From a virus: 50,124 bases of DNA. Each line of letters begins with the position of its first letter. Position 1 is the stretch's first letter. The stretch spans positions 1-50,124 of IMG/VR virus record IMGVR_UViG_3300032241_002034, one strand, 5' to 3'. Position numbers and translations under genes: made by a program. The notes under the pieces are model-generated. The model saw only the letters and a list, made by a program, of their open reading frames with translations. It made no database searches and was not told the origin of the DNA. Below, piece after piece: positions 3,623-49,180 of the stretch.

Positions 3623-3693
3623 AATACTTTTTTAAAATATGTTGGTGGTAAAGATACATCATTTGCTTTGACATAATTTGGATTCATATTCAT
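3619..3693 (-). CDS. Possible 24-residue leader peptide, coupled to kinase
   Basis: A short reading frame MNMNPNYVKANDVSLPPTYF followed by four more residues. Its TGA overlaps the ATG of the kinase gene. It could be a translated leader, a remnant of a longer N-terminus, or chance. The exact stop-start overlap and the lack of another gene in the 148-bp gap are the only support. Confidence 0.3.
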   Translation of the reverse strand: MNMNPNYVKANDVSLPPTYFKKVL

Positions 3694-6408: not shown

Positions 6409-6432
6409 TAAAGGTAATATTTTTATTTTGCC
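6409..6432 (-). promoter_or_regulatory. GGCAAAA-N9-TACCTTTA promoter of denV, possibly leaderless
   Basis: GGCAAAA (6426-6432), a 9-base gap and TACCTTTA (6409-6416) match the repeated promoter of the right-hand gene cluster. Only four bases separate the box from the ATG, so the transcript would start at or next to the start codon. Confidence 0.65.
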
Positions 6433-8112: not shown

Positions 8113-8135
8113 TAAATATAGTATGTAATTTTGCC
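8113..8135 (-). promoter_or_regulatory. GGCAAAA-N8-TATATTTA promoter
   Basis: GGCAAAA (8129-8135) and TATATTTA (8113-8120) precede the exonuclease ATG by 21 bases. Confidence 0.6.
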
Positions 8136-24318: not shown

Positions 24319-24339
24319 GTGTTAATTATTGTATATACT

Positions 24340-24348
24340 ATAAATATA
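24340..24348 (-). promoter_or_regulatory. TATATTTAT late-type element
   Basis: Coding-strand TATATTTAT ends 21 bases before ATG 24318, in the gap after the 1501-residue gene. Confidence 0.45.
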
Positions 24349-37303: not shown

Positions 37304-38086
37304 TTAAATTTTTATATAGCCGTGCTGATAGTATTCATTATACAACCTACTTCGCACGATATCTAACTTTTTAGTAACTTTAGTAATCTGAGGTGTAGAT
37401 GTGTCTGTTATCTCACGGATATAAATGTATAATGCTTTCTTATTAAATATTTCTAGCGTCTCACGCTTACGGAATAATTCAATAATAGCATCTGCTGTAC
37501 GAGCATCTGTAGTTTTAGGGAATAAAGTATATAAATGTTTATCTACATACCTAACATACTGATCTATAAATGTATTTGGATTGGCTTCCTCTTCAGCTGC
37601 ACGGATAGTATCATAAAGAATAACTTTATCTTCATCTATATCTTCAACGTCAGCATGTTCTTGAAGTTTCTTATAATTGTTATTATTGTAAACGATTAAG
37701 TAACGTTTAGCAATAGTACCAAAATAGGAGAATGCCTTACCTTTATCTTGTTTATACTTGTGAAGCTTCTCAAGCAAAAAAGTTACTACCTCGTGTTTCA
37801 GTTCCTCAATGGTATCTGAATCCGTGTAGTAAAATTTAAAGGTATGGATTATATTTTCTGCTAACTTATAAAAAGCATATTCAATACGCTCTCTATAGAT
37901 AGCATTTCTAAATGTTTGATCTTCAGAAGCCAAATATTCAATAATGGCGTTCTCAGTATCTTCAGTAAAATAGATACGTGGCTCTTTAGGCTTACGGCGA
38001 CGGGGTTGACCGCGTTTGTTTAAAGCCGGCGATTTTAGCTCATTATCTAAAAAAAAGTCTAAATCATCCTCATAGTAAGTTGACAT
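37304..38086 (-). CDS. 55: Late-transcription sigma factor, T4 gp55-like
   Basis: A 260-residue sigma-70-type factor. IIHTFKFYYTDSDTIEELKH and KGKAFSYFGTIAKRYLIVYN correspond to sigma region 2, which binds core RNA polymerase and the -10 type element. The C-terminal part (RLYNEYYQHGYIKI) is short, and no region 4 is visible, as in gp55. It would redirect the host polymerase to late promoters, probably the (A/T)ATATTTAT elements of the structural genes here. The first 35 residues are basic (KRGQPRRRKPKEPR). It is placed directly before the baseplate genes. Confidence 0.8.
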   Translation of the reverse strand: MSTYYEDDLDFFLDNELKSPALNKRGQPRRRKPKEPRIYFTEDTENAIIEYLASEDQTFRNAIYRERIEYAFYKLAENIIHTFKFYYTDSDTIEELKHEVVTFLLEKLHKYKQDKGKAFSYFGTIAKRYLIVYNNNNYKKLQEHADVEDIDEDKVILYDTIRAAEEEANPNTFIDQYVRYVDKHLYTLFPKTTDARTADAIIELFRKRETLEIFNKKALYIYIREITDTSTPQITKVTKKLDIVRSRLYNEYYQHGYIKI

Positions 38087-38640: not shown

Positions 38641-38772
38641 TTATATATATAAATATACGATCCTCCGTGTCCCCAACCTCATTTCCCTTCCCTTTCCCCC
38701 TATCAACCATTTTTCAAAACCCTCGTAGGTTGAAGTTACAACATTCACTTTGCACTTCCAAATCTTTCTCAT
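38641..38772 (-). CDS. Doubtful 43-residue basic peptide
   Basis: Reading frame MRKIWKCKVNVVTSTYEGFE followed by 23 residues, rich in Lys, Arg and Gly. It begins at the end of a terminator U-tract. Codons such as GGG, AGG and CGG are unlike the rest of the window. It fills most of the otherwise empty gap between 38631 and 38835. It may be a host-derived insert or not coding at all. Confidence 0.25.
   Translation of the reverse strand: MRKIWKCKVNVVTSTYEGFEKWLIGGKGREMRLGTRRIVYLYI
38649..38657 (-). promoter_or_regulatory. TATATTTAT late-type element
   Basis: Coding-strand TATATTTAT ends 17 bases before ATG 38631. Confidence 0.4.
38671..38700 (-). other. G-rich tract, possible G-quadruplex
   Basis: On the minus strand four G-runs (5, 3, 3 and 4 G) are spaced by 3, 2 and 10 bases. 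Such a run is rare in this AT-rich sequence and lies 14 bases upstream of a late-type element. Confidence 0.4.
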
Positions 38773-41327: not shown

Positions 41328-41351
41328 TAAATATACAAAAATTATTTTGCC
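41328..41351 (-). promoter_or_regulatory. GGCAAAA-N9-TATATTTA promoter
   Basis: GGCAAAA (41345-41351) and TATATTTA (41328-41335) lie 30 bases before ATG 41297. The U-tract of the preceding terminator runs into the box. Confidence 0.6.
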
Positions 41352-41383
41352 AAAAAATGAAGAGCCCTGTTTAACCAGGGCTC
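41352..41383 (-). terminator. Terminator after the 41394-41726 gene
   Basis: Perfect 8-bp stem GAGCCCTG/CAGGGCTC with a 6-base loop, followed by TTCATTTTTT. It adjoins the next promoter directly. Confidence 0.8.
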
Positions 41384-41393
41384 ATTAGTTACC

Positions 41394-41726
41394 TCAGATT
41401 TCCACATCAGCTAAAATATCAGCTACTGAAACCTGGGATACACCATTTCTAGGTATACCAGTAGTACCTTTTGGTCTACCCACTTTAATTTCAATCCCAC
41501 TAGCACGTCTTGCCTCAATTGCCATTAGGCGTTGTTGTCTTGCACTGGTTGGGTTGCTTGGTCTACCACGTTCAACTGATTCACCTGCTGCACGTTTAGC
41601 CTCGATTCTAGCTAATTTCATTTGTCGAGCTGAACCATTTACTACTGGTCTGCCTCTACGTTCTACTTTTTCTGTTGTTACATCGTTCATTGATGCTTCT
41701 GTTGTGTCGAATGTTTCTTTAGTCAT
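41394..41726 (-). CDS. AT-hook DNA-binding protein, three hooks
   Basis: A 110-residue protein with three AT-hook cores, GRP at 25-27, 54-56 and 83-85 (ERRGRPVV, VERGRPSN, KVGRPKG), exactly 29 residues apart. The hooks and linkers form a repeat in which SARQ-x-x-L-x-x-IEAxRA recurs. AT-hooks bind the minor groove of AT-rich DNA, so the likely target is the phage genome itself or AT-rich host promoters. It is a single-gene unit with a promoter and terminator, so probably early. Confidence 0.75.
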   Translation of the reverse strand: MTKETFDTTEASMNDVTTEKVERRGRPVVNGSARQMKLARIEAKRAAGESVERGRPSNPTSARQQRLMAIEARRASGIEIKVGRPKGTTGIPRNGVSQVSVADILADVEI

Positions 41727-41762
41727 AACCTTGATTTTTTATTATTAATTAATTCAATGATG

Positions 41763-41785
41763 TAAATATACGATTGGATTTTGCC
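41763..41785 (-). promoter_or_regulatory. GGCAAAA-N8-TATATTTA promoter
   Basis: GGCAAAA (41779-41785) and TATATTTA (41763-41770) upstream of the AT-hook gene ATG 41726. Confidence 0.6.
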
Positions 41786-41803
41786 TAACCCAATTTTATT
41801 TAG

Positions 41804-42067
41804 TTATTTTTGAATCCGAAAATTACAATCTATCATTACAACATCTGGGTACTCACTATCTTCTTCATAAGTACCATTATCAACTCTTTCATCCATTAAT
41901 TCATAATCCTTTCTAGTTAATTCCACATCATACCACTTTTCTTCATCAATCCTACCTGAAGTTAACTCTTCAGTATAACTCCAATTTGTGTGATCACGGT
42001 GGTATAAAACCACTTTTTTGTCTTGAGGTAATTTCTGTAATTCCTCAATTAATTCTTTTACTGTCAT
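41804..42067 (-). CDS. Small acidic hypothetical protein
   Basis: An 87-residue protein from ATG 42067; the ten extra codons possible upstream are the promoter read as protein (YIYVIKL). It begins MTVKELIEELQKLPQDKKVV, has LYHRDHTNWSYTEELTSGRI and ends with a strand-like VVMIDCNFRIQK. The opening helix-turn-strand pattern resembles many small phage proteins of unknown role. Confidence 0.65.
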   Translation of the reverse strand: MTVKELIEELQKLPQDKKVVLYHRDHTNWSYTEELTSGRIDEEKWYDVELTRKDYELMDERVDNGTYEEDSEYPDVVMIDCNFRIQK

Positions 42068-42086
42068 ACTTATTAATTTTATAACG

Positions 42087-42128
42087 TAAATGTACATAGG
42101 GTAGGGCAGACTAGCAACAGCTGCCCTA
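42087..42128 (-). promoter_or_regulatory. TACATTTA box with overlapping hairpin
   Basis: TACATTTACGTTATAAAATTA (box 42087-42094) is the standard downstream part of the local promoters. In place of GGCAAAA there is a perfect 8-bp stem TAGGGCAG/CTGCCCTA (42102-42128) ending seven bases before the box. Confidence 0.5.
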
Positions 42129-42134
42129 ATTTTT

Positions 42135-42356
42135 TTAGATAAATAATTCGTAGGGATTATCTACATACTCTCCTGTAGTCTGTGCATAAGCACTACGAAT
42201 GTCTACCCAAGTTCCCCATCTTAAGTCTGAAGTAAAGAAGTTCTCTAATAACTGCTTTTCTGCATCAGCACCTAGGCTTGGATACTTCTCTTTCATGTTT
42301 GCTATAGCTTTTAATAACTGTGGTTTTGCTCTCTCTAATAATGTTGGATAATTCAT
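42135..42356 (-). CDS. Small helical hypothetical protein
   Basis: A 73-residue protein from ATG 42356; longer frames only translate the promoter. It contains NYPTLLERAKPQLLKAIANM, DAEKQLLENFFTSDLRWGTW and VDIRSAYAQTTGEYV. Helical and slightly basic at the start. It is probably monocistronic, flanked by promoter and hairpin elements. No family recognised. Confidence 0.65.
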   Translation of the reverse strand: MNYPTLLERAKPQLLKAIANMKEKYPSLGADAEKQLLENFFTSDLRWGTWVDIRSAYAQTTGEYVDNPYELFI

Positions 42357-42375
42357 AACTTTTAATTTTATAACG

Positions 42376-42405
42376 TAAATGTATGAGCGGGACTTTGCCC
42401 GCTCA
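42376..42405 (-). promoter_or_regulatory. Promoter GGCAAAG-N9-TACATTTA inside a hairpin
   Basis: GGCAAAG (42393-42399) and TACATTTA (42376-42383) are spaced by nine bases. An inverted repeat TGAGCGGG/CCCGCTCA (42384-42405) carries the CAAAGT of the upstream box as its loop. Confidence 0.6.
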
Positions 42406-42414
42406 CACAATTTT

Positions 42415-42804
42415 CTAACCGTAAATCACTTCATTATATATTACTGTTTGTATTATACAATCTGCTGTTGTAGCATCGTCACGTTCATTTATAGCATCCA
42501 TTAGGTGCCTATGTGGTGTATTTGCTACCCTTTCATGTATTAAATCCATTGTAATTGGATGACGCTCCTCATCATTATTATCTACTATCCATAGTGACTT
42601 TCCGTTACGTAGCATTTCCATTAATACATCTTCCCAACATTGCTTAATACCTGGTTGAGCCTCGTTTAGTTTTTGTTTGGCTGCTTTGTACTCGTCACTG
42701 TCATAATCTAATTCTAAATCGTAGTAACTTAATTCGCCTAAACCATTGCACATAGCATTGAAGAATATTTCTTCTGATTCGCTTTGTTCTAATACAATTT
42801 TCAT
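42415..42804 (-). CDS. Acidic hypothetical protein
   Basis: A 129-residue protein from ATG 42804; a longer frame upstream is promoter sequence. It is acidic and helical: MKIVLEQSESEEIFFNAMCN, YYDLELDYDSDEYKAAKQKL, CWEDVLMEMLRNGKSLWIVD. Six bases separate its stop from the next hairpin-promoter. No family recognised. Perhaps an early anti-host protein, judged only from acidity, size and location. Confidence 0.62.
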   Translation of the reverse strand: MKIVLEQSESEEIFFNAMCNGLGELSYYDLELDYDSDEYKAAKQKLNEAQPGIKQCWEDVLMEMLRNGKSLWIVDNNDEERHPITMDLIHERVANTPHRHLMDAINERDDATTADCIIQTVIYNEVIYG

Positions 42805-42823
42805 AATTTTTAATTTTATAACG

Positions 42824-42846
42824 TAAATGTACGACGTAATCGTGCC
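42824..42846 (-). promoter_or_regulatory. GGCACGA-N8-TACATTTA promoter
   Basis: GGCACGA in place of GGCAAAA, then TACATTTACGTTATAAAATTA with the box at 42824-42831, upstream of ATG 42804. Confidence 0.5.
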
Positions 42847-42862
42847 TAACACTTTGCCTATT

Positions 42863-43004
42863 AAAATAAATAGTAAATTTGGAGACGGCAAGGCTCGTTC
42901 ATACATTCATGTTACCGATTTGGGTAGGCGCTCCATGGTACGAGTGAAGAGATCAGAGGTAGGCTGCGCTGCAAATATTCATCCGTTCTTGATAGGCAGT
43001 CACC
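42863..43004 (-). ncRNA. Possible small RNA downstream of an orphan promoter
   Basis: The interval holds no convincing gene, yet it is visibly richer in G+C than its surroundings and follows a good match to the local promoter (43005-43028). A 47-codon frame (42912-43055) spans the promoter itself and is doubtful. No terminator hairpin is evident at the left end. An RNA of about 140 bases is a guess from these facts. Confidence 0.25.
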
Positions 43005-43028
43005 TGAAGGTACGAATAGAATTTTGCC
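43005..43028 (-). promoter_or_regulatory. Orphan GGCAAAA-N9-TACCTTCA promoter
   Basis: GGCAAAA (43022-43028), nine bases, then TACCTTCA (43005-43012), one mismatch from the consensus box. No gene starts within 150 bases downstream. Confidence 0.45.
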
Positions 43029-43082
43029 CAAACAAATGAGCAGTAAAGTAGCCATTGCGGAATGCAACAGCTACTATTATAT

Positions 43083-43277
43083 TTACTTATTTAATTCTCG
43101 TTTCAGTGCGTCTTTGATAACACCCGTCAGTACAGTTATTCCTAGTACGATGAAAAACACCATATACAATTTCCATATTGCTTCCCATCCCTTACTGTTG
43201 TGCCTGTTAATGTACGATAGTGGTAATATACAAAAAAACACTACTAAACAACAAACATCGGATAATGTAACGTTCAT
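43083..43277 (-). CDS. Small membrane protein, two helices
   Basis: A 64-residue protein with helix 1 (VCCLVVFFCILPLSYI) and helix 2 (LYMVFFIVLGITVLTGVI) joined by a basic loop NRHNSKGWEAIWK. The tail is basic (KDALKRELNK). It has its own GGCAAAA promoter. Possibly a membrane-acting early protein. Confidence 0.65.
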   Translation of the reverse strand: MNVTLSDVCCLVVFFCILPLSYINRHNSKGWEAIWKLYMVFFIVLGITVLTGVIKDALKRELNK

Positions 43278-43297
43278 AACTAATTAATTTTATAACG

Positions 43298-43320
43298 TAA
43301 ATGTAATGTTTTGTTTTGCC
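43298..43320 (-). promoter_or_regulatory. GGCAAAA-N8-TACATTTA promoter
   Basis: GGCAAAA (43314-43320) and TACATTTA (43298-43305), 20 bases before ATG 43277. Confidence 0.6.
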
Positions 43321-43508
43321 GTACACCAAGGAATTTCTTGTTATACGAAAAGGGGTGGTGTGTTGCGCAAAAATTATGGATCAACTACACACAACCCCCC
43401 ACACCGAACGGGGGACATTCCACATGTAATGAATGACATTTAAACAAAACACCACACATCCCATCCCCGCTACCCACATTACCGTCTTGTTTTACATACA
43501 AAGCCACT
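43321..43508. other. G-rich non-coding gap
   Basis: The 188 bases between the 43509-44045 gene and the next promoter hold no gene. On the minus strand the gap is unusually G-rich, with runs near 43460-43475 and an inverted repeat CCCCC/GGGGG (43396-43414) without a U-tract. It may be a weak terminator region; no clear function. Confidence 0.4.
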
Positions 43509-44045
43509 TTACCCCATACCAAAAAATGCACGAAATTTAGCGCGTAACGGCGCTAAAAAACGCATACCTTTAGCCCCATTACACTTCTCATTATACAAAG
43601 CTACCCAACTATTTCGCTCTTCCGTCATATATTTCAATTGCATTTTATTATAATTCAGTTCCGTTTGCAACGTTATTACCCGAGCATTTAACACATCAAC
43701 CGCTCGCATTGTACTACGTAACATACCCTCTCTATCGTCCAACAATTCCTTTATCACGTCATACTCGTCCTGGGTTATTATATTATTATTCTTTTTCTCT
43801 CCGTCGCCCTCACTTACCGCTACTCCATACTCAACATCCAGTGCCGGATCATAGATTAATTTTATAAGCGCAACTTCATCTTCAGCACACCAATTTGCCC
43901 AATTGCTTGCTCCATCTATTTGTACACGAAACGTTTTGTCTCGTTCATCTATTTCCGTTACAGTCCCTACATTGCCTTTTTTATTAGCAGAGCTACCAAC
44001 CACGTTACGTTTCATTATTACACGATCACCTAATTTGTATTTCAT
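43509..44045 (-). CDS. SH3-like domain plus coiled coil
   Basis: A 178-residue protein. Residues about 1-62 form an SH3/KOW-like barrel (YKLGDRVIMKRNVVGSSANK; GNVGTVTEIDERDKTFRVQI). Residues about 88-160 are a coiled coil (DEYDVIKELLDDREGMLRST; ARVITLQTELNYNKMQLKYM). The end is basic (APLRAKFRAFFGMG). The fold hints at nucleic-acid or ribosome contact. It follows 44047-44169 by one base, in one operon. Confidence 0.65.
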   Translation of the reverse strand: MKYKLGDRVIMKRNVVGSSANKKGNVGTVTEIDERDKTFRVQIDGASNWANWCAEDEVALIKLIYDPALDVEYGVAVSEGDGEKKNNNIITQDEYDVIKELLDDREGMLRSTMRAVDVLNARVITLQTELNYNKMQLKYMTEERNSWVALYNEKCNGAKGMRFLAPLRAKFRAFFGMG

Positions 44046-44046
44046 A

Positions 44047-44169
44047 TTAATTCATATTTTCGTAGTGATCATATTCCTCTACCACTATTCTTATAATGTT
44101 GGAAAAACCAATCATTATTATTATTACTAGGATTATTTCCGCTACAAGTTTAATTAATTCAATTATCAT
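44047..44169 (-). CDS. Single-helix membrane peptide
   Basis: A 40-residue protein from ATG 44169; the 20 codons upstream in frame are promoter sequence. It is a single membrane helix (IKLVAEIILVIIIMIGFSNI) with an acidic tail (VVEEYDHYENMN). It has its own promoter and is followed by the SH3-like gene. Function unknown. Confidence 0.6.
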   Translation of the reverse strand: MIIELIKLVAEIILVIIIMIGFSNIIRIVVEEYDHYENMN

Positions 44170-44188
44170 AACTTTTAATTTTATAACA

Positions 44189-44212
44189 TAAATGTACGTG
44201 CAAAATTGTGCC
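44189..44212 (-). promoter_or_regulatory. GGCACAA-N9-TACATTTA promoter
   Basis: GGCACAA (44206-44212), nine bases, TACATTTA (44189-44196), upstream of ATG 44169. It touches the U-tract of the preceding terminator. Confidence 0.55.
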
Positions 44213-44239
44213 AAAAAAATAAGCCCCATTGCTGGGGCT
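44213..44239 (-). terminator. Terminator after 44248-44658
   Basis: Stem AGCCCC/GGGGCT with a 6-base loop, followed by ATTTTTTT on the minus strand and then the next promoter. Confidence 0.85.
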
Positions 44240-44247
44240 CATTGTAT

Positions 44248-44658
44248 TTATTCTTCTTCTGTTGTTTCGCCGAACTCTTTTATGAATACATCATTAATTG
44301 CTGTTGATACACTGTCGAATAGTTCACTTGTGTTCGCATCTAGTGAATCAATTTCAACTGTATTACTATAACTAATAGTAAATTGTGCTGAACCATAATC
44401 AACTATATCTTCACTATCTAAACGGTCTATTGTTTGTTCTACTGCGGCTAGTACCGTTTCAAGTAATTCCTGATGATCAATTTTGGATTCTGTTGTTTTT
44501 AGTTTTAATCCAACTATCTCATTGATTGATAGTGCAAATTTACTTAGTACTTCCTTTACATCTTCTTTAGTGTAAAGGCTTGGAAAATGGTTATCAATTT
44601 CGGTAAATGATAATGCCATTGTGTCTTGAACCATTGTAGTTAATTCTAACTTGTTCAT
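44248..44658 (-). CDS. Acidic hypothetical protein
   Basis: A 136-residue acidic protein starting MNKLELTTMVQDTMALSFTE. It is helical in the first half (VKEVLSKFALSINEIVGLKL) and ends with DVFIKEFGETTEEE. Single-gene unit between a GGCAAAA promoter and a strong terminator, so it is expressed alone, probably early. No family recognised. Confidence 0.65.
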   Translation of the reverse strand: MNKLELTTMVQDTMALSFTEIDNHFPSLYTKEDVKEVLSKFALSINEIVGLKLKTTESKIDHQELLETVLAAVEQTIDRLDSEDIVDYGSAQFTISYSNTVEIDSLDANTSELFDSVSTAINDVFIKEFGETTEEE

Positions 44659-44689
44659 AACTTGTTTAATTTTTAATTATTTAATAAAC

Positions 44690-44713
44690 TAAATTTACAA
44701 TAAGAATTTTGCC
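44690..44713 (-). promoter_or_regulatory. GGCAAAA-N9-TAAATTTA promoter
   Basis: GGCAAAA (44707-44713) and TAAATTTA (44690-44697), 31 bases before ATG 44658. Confidence 0.6.
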
Positions 44714-44724
44714 AACCAAGTATT

Positions 44725-44910
44725 TTATTGGTATTCCGGTTCGATTTGACTTAAGTCCTCAATCAAATCTTTATTGTCATTCATCAATTTGATTAGTCTA
44801 ATTCTAAAACGTTCGTCACGTTCGTTTCCGGCTTCCTCACTAATATTATTTAAACAATCTAGTAAATCGTGATAGGTATTTTCAAACCTACAATAACTCA
44901 TATTTGCCAT
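44725..44910 (-). CDS. Small conserved-type phage protein (MANMSYCRFENT)
   Basis: A 61-residue protein. The opening MANMSYCRFENTYHDLLDCL is one I recognise from phages of Bacteroidota, with no known function. The rest is helical and charged (NERDERFRIRLIKLMNDNKD). It follows 44922-45512 by 11 bases and shares its promoter. Confidence 0.7.
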   Translation of the reverse strand: MANMSYCRFENTYHDLLDCLNNISEEAGNERDERFRIRLIKLMNDNKDLIEDLSQIEPEYQ

Positions 44911-44921
44911 AATTTTTAATT

Positions 44922-45512
44922 TTATTTTGTTAAGAATAGTTCTATATCACAATCTTTAATTATATATCCTCTAGGACCAATTTCAAATAAATCTCCATCA
45001 TAGTTTAAGTGTCTATGGAGTTTATTTTCAATGGTGTATACTGATCCCATTTCATATCCATGGTGATTGCTATTACCAATTATTTTTACTTTATCTCCAA
45101 CTATGAATTTAGTTGGTGCTTTAGTGAATTTGAAAATAGTATCTTTATTTATCAATTCATATAATTCATTAACCTTATCAAATGGAATCTTTTGACATCC
45201 CACTTCAACTATTTTATTTTCTCTATTAACAATTGCTATATAGTCACTAGTTAGTCTTAACTTGTCAGGAACATCATATTTCTCTAATAATTCAATCATT
45301 TCCGTTAATGATACTCTACGCTCATCATCGATATGTCTTATGCCGCTTATTTGCACATCATTTTTATCAGGATTGAACATAAATACAGGCCGTTTAACTA
45401 CGCCTCCTGATCTGTAATTTTCACATACAGTTATGTTTTTGCTTTCAGCAATGGCAAATAACATGTTTAATACATGTTGGTTTCTGACTTCAGTTGCTCT
45501 TGATTTGTTCAT
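44922..45512 (-). CDS. Hypothetical protein with C-terminal KOW/SH3-like domain
   Basis: A 196-residue protein starting MNKSRATEVRNQHVLNMLFA. Residues about 1-125 are alpha/beta without recognised motifs (VSLTEMIELLEKYDVPDKLR). Residues about 135-196 (KFIVGDKVKIIGNSNHHGYE; GSVYTIENKLHRHLNYDGDL) look like a KOW/SH3 barrel, often nucleic-acid-binding. It is the first gene of a two-gene unit with 44725-44910. Confidence 0.65.
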   Translation of the reverse strand: MNKSRATEVRNQHVLNMLFAIAESKNITVCENYRSGGVVKRPVFMFNPDKNDVQISGIRHIDDERRVSLTEMIELLEKYDVPDKLRLTSDYIAIVNRENKIVEVGCQKIPFDKVNELYELINKDTIFKFTKAPTKFIVGDKVKIIGNSNHHGYEMGSVYTIENKLHRHLNYDGDLFEIGPRGYIIKDCDIELFLTK

Positions 45513-45531
45513 ATTTTTTAATTTTATAACG

Positions 45532-45555
45532 TAAATGTATAAACAAGATTTTGCC
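45532..45555 (-). promoter_or_regulatory. GGCAAAA-N9-TACATTTA promoter
   Basis: GGCAAAA (45549-45555) and TACATTTA (45532-45539), 19 bases before ATG 45512. Confidence 0.65.
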
Positions 45556-45561
45556 TACAAA

Positions 45562-46179
45562 TTATTTTTTAGGTCTTCCTCGCTTACCACCACTCTTAGC
45601 AAGACGTTGTGTATTAGCTAATTCACGTGCTGCTTTTTCTACTTCGCTTAGTCCCGGTCTGCCTCTACGTCCTCCGTTTGCTGCTTTAGGTTGTTTAGGT
45701 ACGCTCTGTCCTGCTGGTCTTCCCCTACGTCCGCTTGATTTTTCGTTACGTTCAGCTTTAGCTGCGTCACGTATTGCTTGTTCTTCATTACTTAGTCCCG
45801 GTCTACCACGTTTACCTCCCTCCGTTTTGACTTTGGCTTGTTTAACTTCCTTAACTACAGCATTTTCGTCTTGCTCTAGTATGTATTTCTTCATTTTAAG
45901 TAATGAAGGATGCTTTATAACTTGATCTAATTCATAGCTACGTGTAGCGCCTGTACTATCAAATACTTCAAATCCACCATCTTTAAACCATTTATTTTCG
46001 CCTGGTTCCCATCTACGTTTCAGGTAGAATGTCATACTGGTTTCATGAAAAAACGGAGCGGGTAGTACTCGTGTCATTGGTTCCGTTGCAACAAGCTCCG
46101 GTTCAACGTCAGTATATGCTCTGACATAGTCACCTAGTACTATGTCTTTTAATATCAGTGGTTTACTTATTATTCTCAT
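45562..46179 (-). CDS. AT-hook protein, four hooks
   Basis: A 205-residue protein. Residues 1-115 form a folded domain without recognised family (VLPAPFFHETSMTFYLKRRW). The C-terminal 85 residues hold four AT-hook cores, GRP at 125, 153, 173 and 201, in GGKRGRPGLS, SGRRGRPAGQ, GGRRGRPGLS and GGKRGRPKK. These should bind AT-rich minor grooves with high avidity. It follows 46192-46419 by 12 bases. It is a second, unrelated carrier of hooks, besides 41394-41726. Confidence 0.75.
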   Translation of the reverse strand: MRIISKPLILKDIVLGDYVRAYTDVEPELVATEPMTRVLPAPFFHETSMTFYLKRRWEPGENKWFKDGGFEVFDSTGATRSYELDQVIKHPSLLKMKKYILEQDENAVVKEVKQAKVKTEGGKRGRPGLSNEEQAIRDAAKAERNEKSSGRRGRPAGQSVPKQPKAANGGRRGRPGLSEVEKAARELANTQRLAKSGGKRGRPKK

Positions 46180-46191
46180 ACTTTAATTTAT

Positions 46192-46419
46192 TTACAAGTT
46201 ATTCAAGGCGTGATTAATCCCATAGTCAATTCCTGCATGGAAAAAAAGTAAATAGTCTGTTACATGACTGGGTTCAAAGCTATACTTTATAATTTTATTT
46301 TCCGAAGGAAATAAAAGTTCACGATCTTGTACGTGTGGTAATTGTTTAACACGATCACCAAATGCCTTTACTAAAAATGGCCAACGATCATCAGTTGTAA
46401 ATAATTCTACTGCATCCAT
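46192..46419 (-). CDS. Small hypothetical protein
   Basis: A 75-residue protein from ATG 46419; upstream codons are promoter. MDAVELFTTDDRWPFLVKAF and SHVTDYLLFFHAGIDYGINH are the main features. Rich in aromatic residues and probably globular. Translated just before the AT-hook gene from the same transcript. No family recognised. Confidence 0.65.
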   Translation of the reverse strand: MDAVELFTTDDRWPFLVKAFGDRVKQLPHVQDRELLFPSENKIIKYSFEPSHVTDYLLFFHAGIDYGINHALNNL

Positions 46420-46438
46420 ATTTTTTAATTTTATAACG

Positions 46439-46462
46439 TAAATATACAACTTTTACTTTGCC
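46439..46462 (-). promoter_or_regulatory. GGCAAAG-N9-TATATTTA promoter
   Basis: GGCAAAG (46456-46462) and TATATTTA (46439-46446) followed by CGTTATAAAATTA, 19 bases before ATG 46419. Confidence 0.65.
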
Positions 46463-46495
46463 AAAAGTAAGGGATCCGGGTAAACACCCAGATCC
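46463..46495 (-). terminator. Terminator after 46530-46916
   Basis: Ten-bp stem GGATCTGGGT/ACCCGGATCC (one T-G pair) with a 4-base loop, followed by CTTACTTTT. It adjoins the next promoter. Confidence 0.75.
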
Positions 46496-46529
46496 GTACC
46501 ATTAAAAATTAAAAGTATGAAAATCGATT

Positions 46530-46916
46530 TTAAGCCTCGTCGGCTAATATCTCTACTTGATTGCCTTTATTATCAAAACATTCCCATCCAGTGAATCTAA
46601 ATGTATCACTATGTACATAAATGTATTCTGCATTATAGTCATTCATCACTTCACAGTATTGGTTAAGTTCTATTTCTCTTGGTTCAACCATACCCCACGG
46701 TTCATTTCTATCACGATGGTATGCAACACAACTATCAAGTGTTTCACCTAATGCACTCAAATCGCCTAACTCTATTAATTCATCTACTATTTCAGATGTA
46801 TTATAGTTATTAACTAACATTTGTCCTACACCAGATGGATAACCATCATAATGACAAAAAATAATCTTAGTAACTTCATTATTCAGTTGGATTCCAATCA
46901 ATGATCTTGTTGCCAC
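46530..46916 (-). CDS. Conserved phage protein, MATRSLIG family, GTG start
   Basis: A 128-residue protein with a GTG start at 46916. MATRSLIGIQL followed by KIIFCHYDGYPSGVGQMLVN is a pattern I recognise from many phages (MATRSxIG ... CHxDGYPxxVG), function unknown. Cysteines and a histidine near the start (FCHYDG) are conserved in that family. It follows 46928-47137 by 11 bases and ends before a strong terminator. Confidence 0.75.
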   Translation of the reverse strand: MATRSLIGIQLNNEVTKIIFCHYDGYPSGVGQMLVNNYNTSEIVDELIELGDLSALGETLDSCVAYHRDRNEPWGMVEPREIELNQYCEVMNDYNAEYIYVHSDTFRFTGWECFDNKGNQVEILADEA

Positions 46917-46927
46917 AGTATTTAGTT

Positions 46928-47137
46928 TTAATGATTAGCAATTGATAAAAAACTATTCGGTCTACCATGCTTATCAGTCCATAACCCCATTATCAATTTA
47001 GCATTAATCTTTGAATCGCTTGCTGTATGTAATCTAGATACATTTAATTCTTCTACCCATTTACGATAAGCAGGATCAGATGCTGTTACTTGTCTTTCCT
47101 GTTCGATTTGATTTAATCTTTCAATTGATACATTCAT
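46928..47137 (-). CDS. Small hypothetical protein
   Basis: A 69-residue protein: MNVSIERLNQIEQERQVTAS (helical), then AYRKWVEELNVSRLHTASDS and LIMGLWTDKHGRPNSFLSIA. It shares a promoter with the MATRSLIG gene. No family recognised. Confidence 0.6.
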   Translation of the reverse strand: MNVSIERLNQIEQERQVTASDPAYRKWVEELNVSRLHTASDSKINAKLIMGLWTDKHGRPNSFLSIANH

Positions 47138-47157
47138 AACTTATTATTTTTATAATG

Positions 47158-47181
47158 TAAATGTATAAAATTTACTTTGCC
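47158..47181 (-). promoter_or_regulatory. GGCAAAG-N9-TACATTTA promoter
   Basis: GGCAAAG (47175-47181) and TACATTTA (47158-47165), 20 bases before ATG 47137. Confidence 0.65.
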
Positions 47182-47183
47182 AA

Positions 47184-47354
47184 TTACTTTATTTCGTTTG
47201 AAGAAACGATAGTAACATTTTTAATATTCATTTTTCCTAACGCTTCAATTACTTGATTAGTAGCATCATTACTGCTTTTAGCTTTAGTTATTACCTCGCC
47301 CCGTGTTTTTTCGTTTTTATCACTAACAGTGAAGGATATTTGGTGTTTTTTCAT
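47184..47354 (-). CDS. Small hypothetical protein
   Basis: A 56-residue protein from ATG 47354. MKKHQISFTVSDKNEKTRGE, then SNDATNQVIEALGKMNIKNV and TIVSSNEIK, suggest a small beta-alpha-beta fold. It follows the lipoprotein gene by ten bases and shares its promoter. No family recognised. Confidence 0.6.
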   Translation of the reverse strand: MKKHQISFTVSDKNEKTRGEVITKAKSSNDATNQVIEALGKMNIKNVTIVSSNEIK

Positions 47355-47364
47355 AACAATTAAT

Positions 47365-47508
47365 TTAATAATTCCATGTTGAACCACTTCTACCTACTAC
47401 ACAAACTCTACGTCTAGGTGCTTTATATCCTCCTAATTTTGCTCCAAATTCTACTGCACATGAACTAAATAAAGCCATAATAACTAATGCTACTAATATT
47501 TTTTTCAT
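47365..47508 (-). CDS. Small lipoprotein
   Basis: A 47-residue protein. MKKILVALVIMALFSSC is a type II signal peptide with lipobox LFSSC, Cys17 being the lipidated residue. The mature part is about 30 residues, basic (KAPRRRVCVVGRSG) and ends in SGSTWNY. It would be anchored to the host membrane facing the periplasm. Possible roles are superinfection exclusion or receptor blocking, as known for small phage lipoproteins; no motif proves either. A hairpin-promoter lies upstream. Confidence 0.7.
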   Translation of the reverse strand: MKKILVALVIMALFSSCAVEFGAKLGGYKAPRRRVCVVGRSGSTWNY

Positions 47509-47528
47509 AATTTTTAATTTTTATGAGA

Positions 47529-47556
47529 TAAATGTAGGTGGTCAGTTTTGACCACC
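47529..47556 (-). promoter_or_regulatory. GTCAAAA-N9-TACATTTA promoter inside a hairpin
   Basis: GTCAAAA (47546-47552), nine bases and TACATTTA (47529-47536). A perfect 7-bp stem GGTGGTC/GACCACC (47537-47556) holds the CAAAA run in its loop and directly abuts the box. Confidence 0.55.
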
Positions 47557-47569
47557 CACAAAAATTATT

Positions 47570-47779
47570 TTAGGCTAACATATTTTCAACCCATATTTCA
47601 TTTGTTCGCTCTACATAATAAACACATATACCACGATAGTCAAATCTTTCGTTTTGTTTTAAATACTCAACGATTTCACTATCGAATTCATTATTAACGG
47701 GGTACTCTACAACTTCTGAATTACCTAAATTACTAAAATAATTCAGATTGTCATTAACAAATTGTTCTAATTTTTTCAT
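47570..47779 (-). CDS. Small acidic hypothetical protein
   Basis: A 69-residue protein: MKKLEQFVNDNLNYFSNLGN, then EFDSEIVEYLKQNERFDYRG and ICVYYVERTNEIWVENMLA. Acidic with an aromatic C-terminal strand. Single-gene unit with its own GGCAAAG promoter. No family recognised. Confidence 0.62.
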   Translation of the reverse strand: MKKLEQFVNDNLNYFSNLGNSEVVEYPVNNEFDSEIVEYLKQNERFDYRGICVYYVERTNEIWVENMLA

Positions 47780-47794
47780 AATTTTTAATTTGAG

Positions 47795-47818
47795 TAAATG
47801 TACAATAAAAACTTTGCC
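47795..47818 (-). promoter_or_regulatory. GGCAAAG-N9-TACATTTA promoter
   Basis: GGCAAAG (47812-47818) and TACATTTA (47795-47802), 15 bases before ATG 47779. Confidence 0.65.
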
Positions 47819-47823
47819 TATTC

Positions 47824-48165
47824 TTAATAATATAATCCTTCATTTCCGTTTTGACCAATAATATCCATTCTTCTATTAGCTGTTGCTTCATCCCAAGCAG
47901 TTTCAGCAGCTGCTTCACGAGCTGTTTTACTCATTTGATTAACACCCATTCCTTCATATTTTAACAATGAATTGCAAAGGTATCTTTGAAATGCAGTCAT
48001 TGATTTAGCTTCATTAACAGCATTCACTATTAATTGTTTATCTTTTTCATTAATAGATTTGTCATTTACAAAGTTAATTGTAAATTCCTTAGCTTCAGCT
48101 AAACTAGTCATTTTAAATACTTGCACACTGATTTGTTCGAAGTTAGATTTAATTGGGTATTTCAT
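47824..48165 (-). CDS. Hypothetical protein
   Basis: A 113-residue helical protein from ATG 48165 (MKYPIKSNFEQISVQVFKMT). Segments AKEFTINFVNDKSINEKDKQ, MTAFQRYLCNSLLKYEGMGV and AREAAAETAWDEATANRRMD are predicted helices. Positive and negative charges are balanced. It sits behind a weak promoter match. No family recognised. Confidence 0.62.
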   Translation of the reverse strand: MKYPIKSNFEQISVQVFKMTSLAEAKEFTINFVNDKSINEKDKQLIVNAVNEAKSMTAFQRYLCNSLLKYEGMGVNQMSKTAREAAAETAWDEATANRRMDIIGQNGNEGLYY

Positions 48166-48181
48166 AGCAATTTTATTTGTA

Positions 48182-48205
48182 TAAAGGTACAATGCTTATT
48201 TTACT
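48182..48205 (-). promoter_or_regulatory. Weak AGTAAAA-N9-TACCTTTA promoter
   Basis: TACCTTTA (48182-48189) with the usual nine-base gap to AGTAAAA (48199-48205), a degenerate upstream box that overlaps the previous stop codon. Confidence 0.35.
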
Positions 48206-48524
48206 CAACCTCATTACTAGTGCTATCTTCTTTCAAAGTCATATTTAATTGTTCAATGGATAGTAATTTACCATCTTCAGCTGCCTCAATTAATTCAACT
48301 ATATTATCCCATAGCATATCTTTATCATCTGCTAAGTAATTGTTTAACATAGTTTCAGCCATTACTTCAGCATCATCCCTGAATAAAATTACTAGTTGAT
48401 CATAAATTGAACTAATTTGTTCGTCTGTTAAAACACGTTGAAAATTGCGAGATTGTGGTGTGGGGTTATTTTCTTTTTCCCACATTTCAACGTTTGGATC
48501 ATGTTCATTGTCATATATTCCCAT
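48201..48524 (-). CDS. Acidic hypothetical protein
   Basis: A 107-residue acidic, helical protein starting MGIYDNEHDPNVEMWEKENN. It contains QRVLTDEQISSIYDQLVILF and AEVMAETMLNNYLADDKDML. It follows 48528-48917 by three bases, so it is translated from the same mRNA. Function unknown. Confidence 0.62.
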   Translation of the reverse strand: MGIYDNEHDPNVEMWEKENNPTPQSRNFQRVLTDEQISSIYDQLVILFRDDAEVMAETMLNNYLADDKDMLWDNIVELIEAAEDGKLLSIEQLNMTLKEDSTSNEVE

Positions 48525-48527
48525 AAC

Positions 48528-48917
48528 TTAACTTTTTAAAACGAGATAATTATTTACTTTAGATTCTTCCCTACAATGTACTACATATCCTACTGAAACA
48601 TCATATGCTTCATTACCATGAATTGGATAAAAATCAGTATTCATTTTACAAAATTGTTTAGCAAAATCAAATGCTTCGTATGACCATTCTTTATTAGCAT
48701 TAGGTAATCGTATTAAAATATAATGTTTAAAAGAATTGATATATCCCTTATGTAATACTTTATAGTTTTGTGTACAAAGGCAAGCATGTATTTTATCTAC
48801 TATACTAACTTCAAATACCTCAGGGAAATAATCTTCAATTTTACGTTTCCAATCTTGGCATGCTAACCTGTGAGCATCTAAAATGAATTTCTCACTTACT
48901 TCGTGCATTTTACTCAT
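48528..48917 (-). CDS. Hypothetical protein
   Basis: A 129-residue alpha/beta protein. It begins MSKMHEVSEKFILDAHRLAC and contains FEVSIVDKIHACLCTQNYKV and YILIRLPNANKEWSYEAFDF. Several Cys and His residues are present but in no known zinc pattern. First of a two-gene pair with 48201-48524, and 20 bases after 48938-49138. No family recognised. Confidence 0.62.
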   Translation of the reverse strand: MSKMHEVSEKFILDAHRLACQDWKRKIEDYFPEVFEVSIVDKIHACLCTQNYKVLHKGYINSFKHYILIRLPNANKEWSYEAFDFAKQFCKMNTDFYPIHGNEAYDVSVGYVVHCREESKVNNYLVLKS

Positions 48918-48937
48918 AACCTATTAATTTTATTGTT

Positions 48938-49138
48938 TTAATTCATTACACTTTGCTTAGCATATATAATTGCTTCGCTAAAAGCCTCTAATTCTTCTTC
49001 AGAACTAGGTGGAAAAAATAAATCTACTTCACCTACTAATGATTCATTGTCGTGAAGTCCTCTCATAATATGATGTTTAACCAAATTTTCAATTTGTAAA
49101 CATTTTAATATTATAGTTGGATCAGTAAGATCATCCAT
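48938..49138 (-). CDS. Small acidic hypothetical protein
   Basis: A 66-residue acidic helical protein: MDDLTDPTIILKCLQIENLV, then EVDLFFPPSSEEELEAFSEA and IIYAKQSVMN. It is first in the unit that includes the next two genes and has its own GGCAAAA promoter. No family recognised. Confidence 0.62.
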   Translation of the reverse strand: MDDLTDPTIILKCLQIENLVKHHIMRGLHDNESLVGEVDLFFPPSSEEELEAFSEAIIYAKQSVMN

Positions 49139-49155
49139 TTCTTATTAATTTACAA

Positions 49156-49180
49156 TAAATATAAAAAAAAAGATTTTGCC
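49156..49180 (-). promoter_or_regulatory. GGCAAAA-N10-TATATTTA promoter
   Basis: GGCAAAA (49174-49180) and TATATTTA (49156-49163) separated by ten bases that include an eight-T run, 17 bases before ATG 49138. Confidence 0.55.

Follow-up and report, generated by a model that had tools for sequence, protein, structure and literature searches.

A Bacteroidota-type -7 element combined with a clade-private upstream box in the predicted early/middle promoters of a T4-like phage

The repeats that precede genes in the IMG/VR virus record analysed here (the window; the whole record, 50,124 bases) are probably early/middle phage promoters, at which the host polymerase would act with the host primary sigma factor and the -33 element is largely replaced by a box, GKCAAAR, that is most likely bound by a phage protein. 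Phage promoters repeated ahead of early-type genes are of a known kind; what appears unusual is that the box replacing the host -33 is private to one clade and is accompanied by a plausible candidate reader. The phage is T4-like and its hosts are of the flavobacteria type. Nearly all genes of the window lie on the minus strand, among them genes for baseplate wedge, endolysin, primase, denV and DNA polymerase exonuclease, and the nearest named relatives of its sigma-70-type protein (37304-38086) are found in Flavobacterium phage immuto (46% identity), a T4-like myovirus, and in a phage recorded from Microcystis. A megablast search of the right-hand cluster against named phages gave no match.

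The pattern GKCAAA-N10-TAYATTYA, with one mismatch at most, has 13 matches in the window, all on the minus (coding) strand, as compared to 0.71 expected and a maximum of 4 in 100 shuffles. The form with an 8-base gap adds 3 exact minus-strand copies (8135, 41785, 43320), and when gap variants are included the window holds about 16 copies, each ahead of a short leader (Table 1). They are densest in an early-type cluster of small genes; the genes following the copies at 6432 and 8135 match denV (PHROG 1183, E=2e-37) and the exonuclease (PHROG 403, E=2.5e-61), respectively. An earlier sequence-only reading of this DNA had proposed just such a repeat in the right-hand cluster and ahead of denV and the exonuclease, with a gap of 9 bases in most copies, 8 in some and 10 in one, and both the repeat and the gaps (10, 4 and 1 of the listed copies, weaker copies aside) are confirmed. 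Its statement that most right-hand copies share the sequence that follows did not hold, exact CGTTATAAAATTA being present in 5 only and TGTTATAAAATTA in a sixth. The motif search that it suggested for the genome and its relatives finds the motif in related phages, from which its absence had been named as a refutation: it occurs in dozens of related IMG/VR contigs, almost entirely on one strand in each contig. Across 22 such contigs there are about 200 pattern matches with a coding-strand bias in 20 of the 22, reversed-pattern controls giving 0-3. For alignment, 294 non-redundant copies with identical gaps and with an ATG located 12-40 bases downstream were taken from 145 fetched stretches. The open-access literature searched contained no earlier description of a GKCAAAR box.

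Table 1. Promoter copies and related features of the window
Feature	Position	Strand	Remark
promoter copy, 10-base gap	49156..49180	-	
weak promoter copy AGTAAAA-N9-TACCTTTA	48182..48205	-	
promoter copy, 9-base gap	47795..47818	-	pattern search
promoter copy, GTCAAAA box, 9-base gap	47529..47552	-	pattern search
hairpin inside promoter, GGTGGTCA-AAAC-TGACCACC	47537..47556	-	
promoter copy, 9-base gap	47158..47181	-	pattern search
promoter copy, 9-base gap; weak AT-rich stem surrounding box	46439..46462	-	pattern search
ATH-A, N-terminal domain of about 110 aa and unassigned fold, tail bearing four RGRP AT-hook cores	45562..46179	-	clade-restricted candidate reader
perfect promoter copy, 9-base gap, then CGTTATAAAATTA	45532..45555	-	predicted +1 45527 (-7 calibration from PMC9723704), ATG 45512
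promoter copy (TAAATTTA), 9-base gap	44690..44713	-	pattern search
promoter copy GGCACAA, 9-base gap; ordinary U-tract terminator immediately before	44189..44212	-	
promoter copy, 8-base gap	43298..43320	-	8-gap pattern search
promoter copy, GGCACGA box, 8-base gap	42824..42846	-	
hairpin inside promoter, TGAGCGGG-CAAAGT-CCCGCTCA	42384..42405	-	
promoter copy, 9-base gap	42376..42399	-	pattern search
promoter copy, 8-base gap, weak stem	41763..41785	-	8-gap pattern search
ATH-B, 110 aa, three AT-hook-like GRP repeats	41394..41726	-	relatives also in TTTCC clade
promoter copy, 9-base gap; ordinary terminator immediately before	41328..41351	-	pattern search
candidate core of a late promoter, TATATTTATA, lacking a G box	38648..38657	-	
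sigma-70-type factor of the phage, 260 aa: sigma-2 domain and predicted C-terminal helix-turn-helix	37304..38086	-	
candidate late promoter core TATATTTATA, ahead of structural-region gene	24339..24348	-	
promoter copy, 8-base gap, ahead of DNA polymerase exonuclease gene	8113..8135	-	
promoter copy, 9-base gap, ahead of denV	6409..6432	-	pattern search
weaker promoter copy GTCAAAG-N9-TATCTTTA	3649..3672	-	pattern search

With the first T of TAYATTYA set to 0 in the alignment of 294 copies, GKCAAAR lies at -16..-10, an A is found at +12 in 75% of the copies, and a weak TTG is enriched at exactly -23/-22, 19-20 bases ahead of the -7 (30 and 28 copies, respectively, versus about 5 elsewhere). 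The -7 of the copies (TAYATTYA/TATCTTTA) is similar to TAnnTTTG and ends in A where the host has G. In Flavobacterium psychrophilum the primary-sigma (sigma-A) box TAnnTTTG spans -12..-5 (PMC9723704), and TAYATTTA, as judged from its sequence, is this Bacteroidota -7 element at -12..-5. The calibration would place +1 on the conserved A, GKCAAAR at -28..-22 and TTG at -35..-33, so that the start site is predicted, from another species, to be the A 12 bases past the first T of the -7. TTG at the host -33 spacing (about 19-21 bases) is found in 55 of 204 copies that lack a stem as compared to a background of 16, and in 6 of 46 that have one. Moreover, on contig L128 a tRNA-Leu gene begins 16 bases past the -7 of one copy; a copy ahead of a tRNA, together with a trace of TTG at the correct spacing, argues that the element is a promoter and not a ribosome site. 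Enrichment, occurrence in relatives, the -7 match and the tRNA case all bear out the repeated phage promoter that had been proposed, and the proposed likeness of its downstream half to the Bacteroidota -7 element (TAYATTTA versus TAnnTTTG) stands as well. The upstream half is indeed no host consensus, but its placement at about -20 has to be corrected to about -28..-22, in the spacer between a weak TTG and the -7. Similarly, the host -33 is largely lacking, as had been stated, yet not wholly absent, since roughly a quarter of the stemless family copies still show a weak TTG with the correct spacing.

To compare clades, a sigma-factor tree was built from 236 phage proteins, and -7 boxes were gathered without regard to the upstream box. 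TAYATTTA is common to every clade, and it is the upstream element that varies: GTTGC, spaced by 20 bases, in the Immuto clade, TTTGG(Y) together with TACC in an intermediate set represented by few boxes, and TTTCC, near the -7, in another clade, GKCAAAR being found only in the clade of the window. A constant -7 combined with an upstream element that varies by clade points to a two-part motif made of a shared host-type core and a private box. This suggests that the phages of the window's clade may have exchanged part of the host promoter code for a private one. The clade-by-clade exchange of boxes, the hairpins and the AT-hook proteins that accompany the box all go beyond the sequence-only reading.

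A stem of at least 8 pairs, with arms that differ between copies, encloses the box in its loop in 46 of the 294 copies, whereas GC-matched arm swaps give 18; 204 copies have 5 pairs or fewer. Such register-free swaps were used because the stem register varies, which smears position-by-position covariation of the arms. Mean folding energy in the first set was -4.8 versus -2.2±0.2. G.T pairs outnumber A.C in the stems by 22 to 1, where chance would give 2.4 to 1.4, and a slightly different method gave 20 to 1 in sum for three clades. That G.T is tolerated and A.C is not indicates that pairing is selected in the sense-strand RNA, and as the hairpin region lies upstream of the predicted start this RNA must be the transcript of the upstream gene. 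Stem copies start at a median of 13 bases past the upstream stop codon, and spacer hairpins are also present in the Immuto and TTTCC clades. As canonical terminators the hairpins had to be dismissed because the U run is mostly missing (a scored terminator lies within 120 bases of 3 of the 46 stem copies), and a role in termination can be suggested at most. We infer that the hairpin may be a space-saving 3' end, either a weak terminator or a stability hairpin, that is folded into the next promoter. For promoter recognition the hairpins would be dispensable.

What, then, would read the GKCAAAR box? Comparison of gene content between six large contigs of the clade and four others yielded about 25 clade-only families. 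One of these, ATH-A, carries a DNA-binding signature and is present in 6/6 large clade contigs and the window and in 0/4 others. Its four RGRP cores are flanked by basic residues and conserved in the alignment; the Pfam AT_hook model, which is 13 positions long, gives no match on ATH-A and 14.8 bits, versus a cut-off of 17.4, on a relative of ATH-B, and the structure model of ATH-A has a pLDDT of 58. When 2.9 million viral contigs were searched with a protein profile, 44 ATH-A loci came up; the box is present at 43 of these, in 432 copies, and 29 of the 44 ATH-A genes carry their own box. ATH-A is missing from the 24 other-clade loci with at least 8 kb upstream, and no more than one copy of the box is seen in 23 of these. 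Smaller multi-GRP proteins of the ATH-B type occur in the window's clade and the TTTCC clade (16/16 loci) and in 0/51 loci of the remaining clades, most of which retain a TTG-type -33. No match to ATH-A was obtained by tblastn against named phages. ATH-A appears to be the best correlated candidate reader of GKCAAAR; as the correlation possibly stems from one or two evolutionary events, it is a lead and not proof, and the two could co-occur solely by shared ancestry. In addition, AT-hooks usually read A/T tracts, not a G/C-containing box, which counts against ATH-A in this role. We regard as doubtful the more far-reaching proposal that ATH-A is a hitherto undescribed multi-AT-hook specificity factor which reads GKCAAAR and redirects the host polymerase, in a second, unrelated MotA-like takeover with both reader and box exchanged among the sister clades. 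Another candidate, an XRE-like clade protein of 78 aa, is present in 5/6 contigs but was rejected, as the recognition helix is not constant and Pfam gives no match. The MotA DNA-binding domain (PF09158) is absent in 12 records and AsiA (PF09010) in 8, where a very divergent AsiA could escape detection, and 8 contigs contain no homologue of a multisubunit RNA polymerase.

The phage's own sigma factor is an improbable reader of GKCAAAR-N9-TAYATTTA, even though it is a two-domain sigma-70-type protein and the sigma tree follows the promoter clades. Its region 2 gives weak profile matches (SigI in 24/44 members, best E=7e-6) and by structure comparison aligns with sigma-E region 2 over 91/91 residues (rmsd 2.5, Z 9.3); the C-terminal helices span 216-227 and 231-255, and whole-length alignments have a large rmsd. 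It is a genuine sigma-70-type factor. However, its predicted DNA-reading helix-turn-helix residues are invariant across clades with differing upstream boxes, and the boxes downstream of the sigma gene, in the structural region, keep TATATTTAT and have GKCAAAR in 1/37. The latter makes late promoters the likelier target, to which this factor seems better suited than to box promoters. Thus, where the sequence-only reading left the choice between an activator and a modified sigma, an activator is leading though unproven, and a modified sigma in the sense of the phage's own is unlikely because the helix stays constant while the boxes differ.

It is possible, if on the unlikely side, that GKCAAAR is a strength element which makes a spacer contact with unmodified host RNA polymerase and needs no phage protein, much as extra conserved bases in T4 early promoters act as a strength element for the host polymerase. 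The -7 and the traces of a -33 fit a host sigma-A promoter and the copies are concentrated in the early-type small-gene cluster; yet sister clades with the same -7 carry other boxes, and the consulted part of the F. psychrophilum map describes no host promoter with GKCAAAR (PMC9723704). The box may also be read by a host factor, or directly by the host polymerase, and the -7 boxes end in A, not in the host's G; both points weigh against the reading that we prefer. An RNA element between genes, be it a ribosome or a processing site, would account for copies about 20 bases ahead of ATGs and for hairpins that behave as RNA, but is very improbable given the copy ahead of a tRNA gene, the -33/-7 spacing and a box that is conserved without any stem. 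Least credible, to the point of being negligible, is a promoter formed by a DNA hairpin, as for the N4 virion RNA polymerase, in which GKCAAA would be the loop: the excess of long stems with varied arms over the swap control (46/294 versus 18) would suit it, but most copies are stemless, stems also occur in clades without the box, stem copies start just past the upstream stop codon, and the asymmetry of G.T over A.C is that of pairing selected in sense RNA. It was rejected on the asymmetry and the many stemless copies.

According to our preferred reading, of host polymerase assisted by a phage protein, the repeats would serve as promoters of early/middle-type genes for host RNA polymerase that carries the Bacteroidota primary sigma, and transcription would start at the conserved A, producing an A-rich leader of 10-25 bases. 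In the window's clade only, GKCAAAR at -28..-22 would largely supplant the host -33 contact, and a phage-encoded protein would most likely bind it and hold the polymerase at the promoter, in the role that MotA plays at T4 middle promoters and without being a MotA homologue. If space permits, the hairpin at the 3' end of the upstream mRNA would be accommodated within the spacer and serve there as a compact 3' end or as a terminator. Start site, host sigma usage and phage reader are all predictions from sequence. A large and mostly uncultured group of T4-like Bacteroidota phages keeps one -7 and swaps the upstream box by clade. This natural series lends itself to studying the co-evolution of promoter code and reader, puts forward a reader that can be tested, and provides a phylum for which genetic tools are scarce with strong promoter candidates.

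With Bacteroidota primary-sigma promoters (-33 TTG / -7 TAnnTTTG) the window's promoters share the -7, apparently the spacing of the residual TTG, and a predicted short A-rich leader; they differ in the extra GKCAAAR in the spacer, the weak -33 and the -7 ending in A instead of G. N4 virion-polymerase promoters require a stem-loop in every copy, unlike the repeats described here (204/294 with 5 pairs or fewer). A review of T4 knew appropriation of sigma solely from T4-type phages with MotA/AsiA (PMC2988021). As in T4 middle promoters, the host -10/-7 is kept and the host -35/-33 replaced by a phage box, GKCAAAR standing where sister clades rely on TTG; the MotA box lies 12±1 bases ahead of the T4 -10 (PMC2988021), and GKCAAAR 9 bases ahead of the -7. 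However, the box sequence is different, and the MotA DNA-binding domain and AsiA are undetected in the records searched. With regard to T4 late promoters and their gp55 sigma, phages of the window's kind seem to possess TATATTTATA promoters without an upstream box together with a phage sigma, a late-type class apart from the GKCAAAR motif. Finally, the early-type promoters of Immutovirus (Flavobacterium phage immuto) retain GTTG at the host -33 and lack GKCAAAR, and are like those of the window in their -7, the position of the leader and the T4-like gene order.

Small proteins made up of three or four AT-hook-like GRP repeats occur in two phage clades, both with non-host upstream boxes: that of the window, with ATH-B, and the TTTCC clade, in which they were found in L087 and 15 other loci. 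None were seen in the remaining clades compared. Intermediate clades carry two additional upstream boxes, TTGACCG (L076 and L071) and TTTGGYTACC (L061, L192 and L204), with only a few copies of each observed.

The phage sigma factor has more than 590 relatives in IMG/VR, and its versions in the named relatives are annotated as hypothetical proteins only. Microcystis phage Mel-JY01 (PP395634) encodes a relative of this factor; the Microcystis culture may have contained a Bacteroidota bacterium that is the phage's real host.

Features of the window and of the related phage L135
Feature	Location	Strand
Divergent sigma-70-type factor, two domains	37304-38086	-
Small GRP-repeat protein (ATH-B)	41394-41726	-
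TATATTTAT(A/T) box before structural-region gene	38657	-
TATATTTAT(A/T) box before structural-region gene	24348	-
TATATTTAT(A/T) box before structural-region gene	37298	-
Motif copy, one mismatch, no long ORF directly downstream	43005-43028	-
Spacer hairpin 1	47537-47556	-
Spacer hairpin 2	42384-42405	-
Phage-encoded tmRNA, tag DVELSTMTFEDAMAFVGADYAVAA	L135 548-939	+

In three clades of these phages, hairpins are built into the promoter spacer and begin directly behind the upstream stop codon; their arms covary in both window copies and at many related loci, and G.U pairs are tolerated. A short gene or an RNA that has not been annotated may be transcribed from the mismatched motif copy. The tmRNA of L135 adjoins a tRNA-Leu.

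Finally, the TATATTTAT(A/T) boxes preceding structural-region genes are likely a late promoter class, and they are similar to the T4 TATAAATA.
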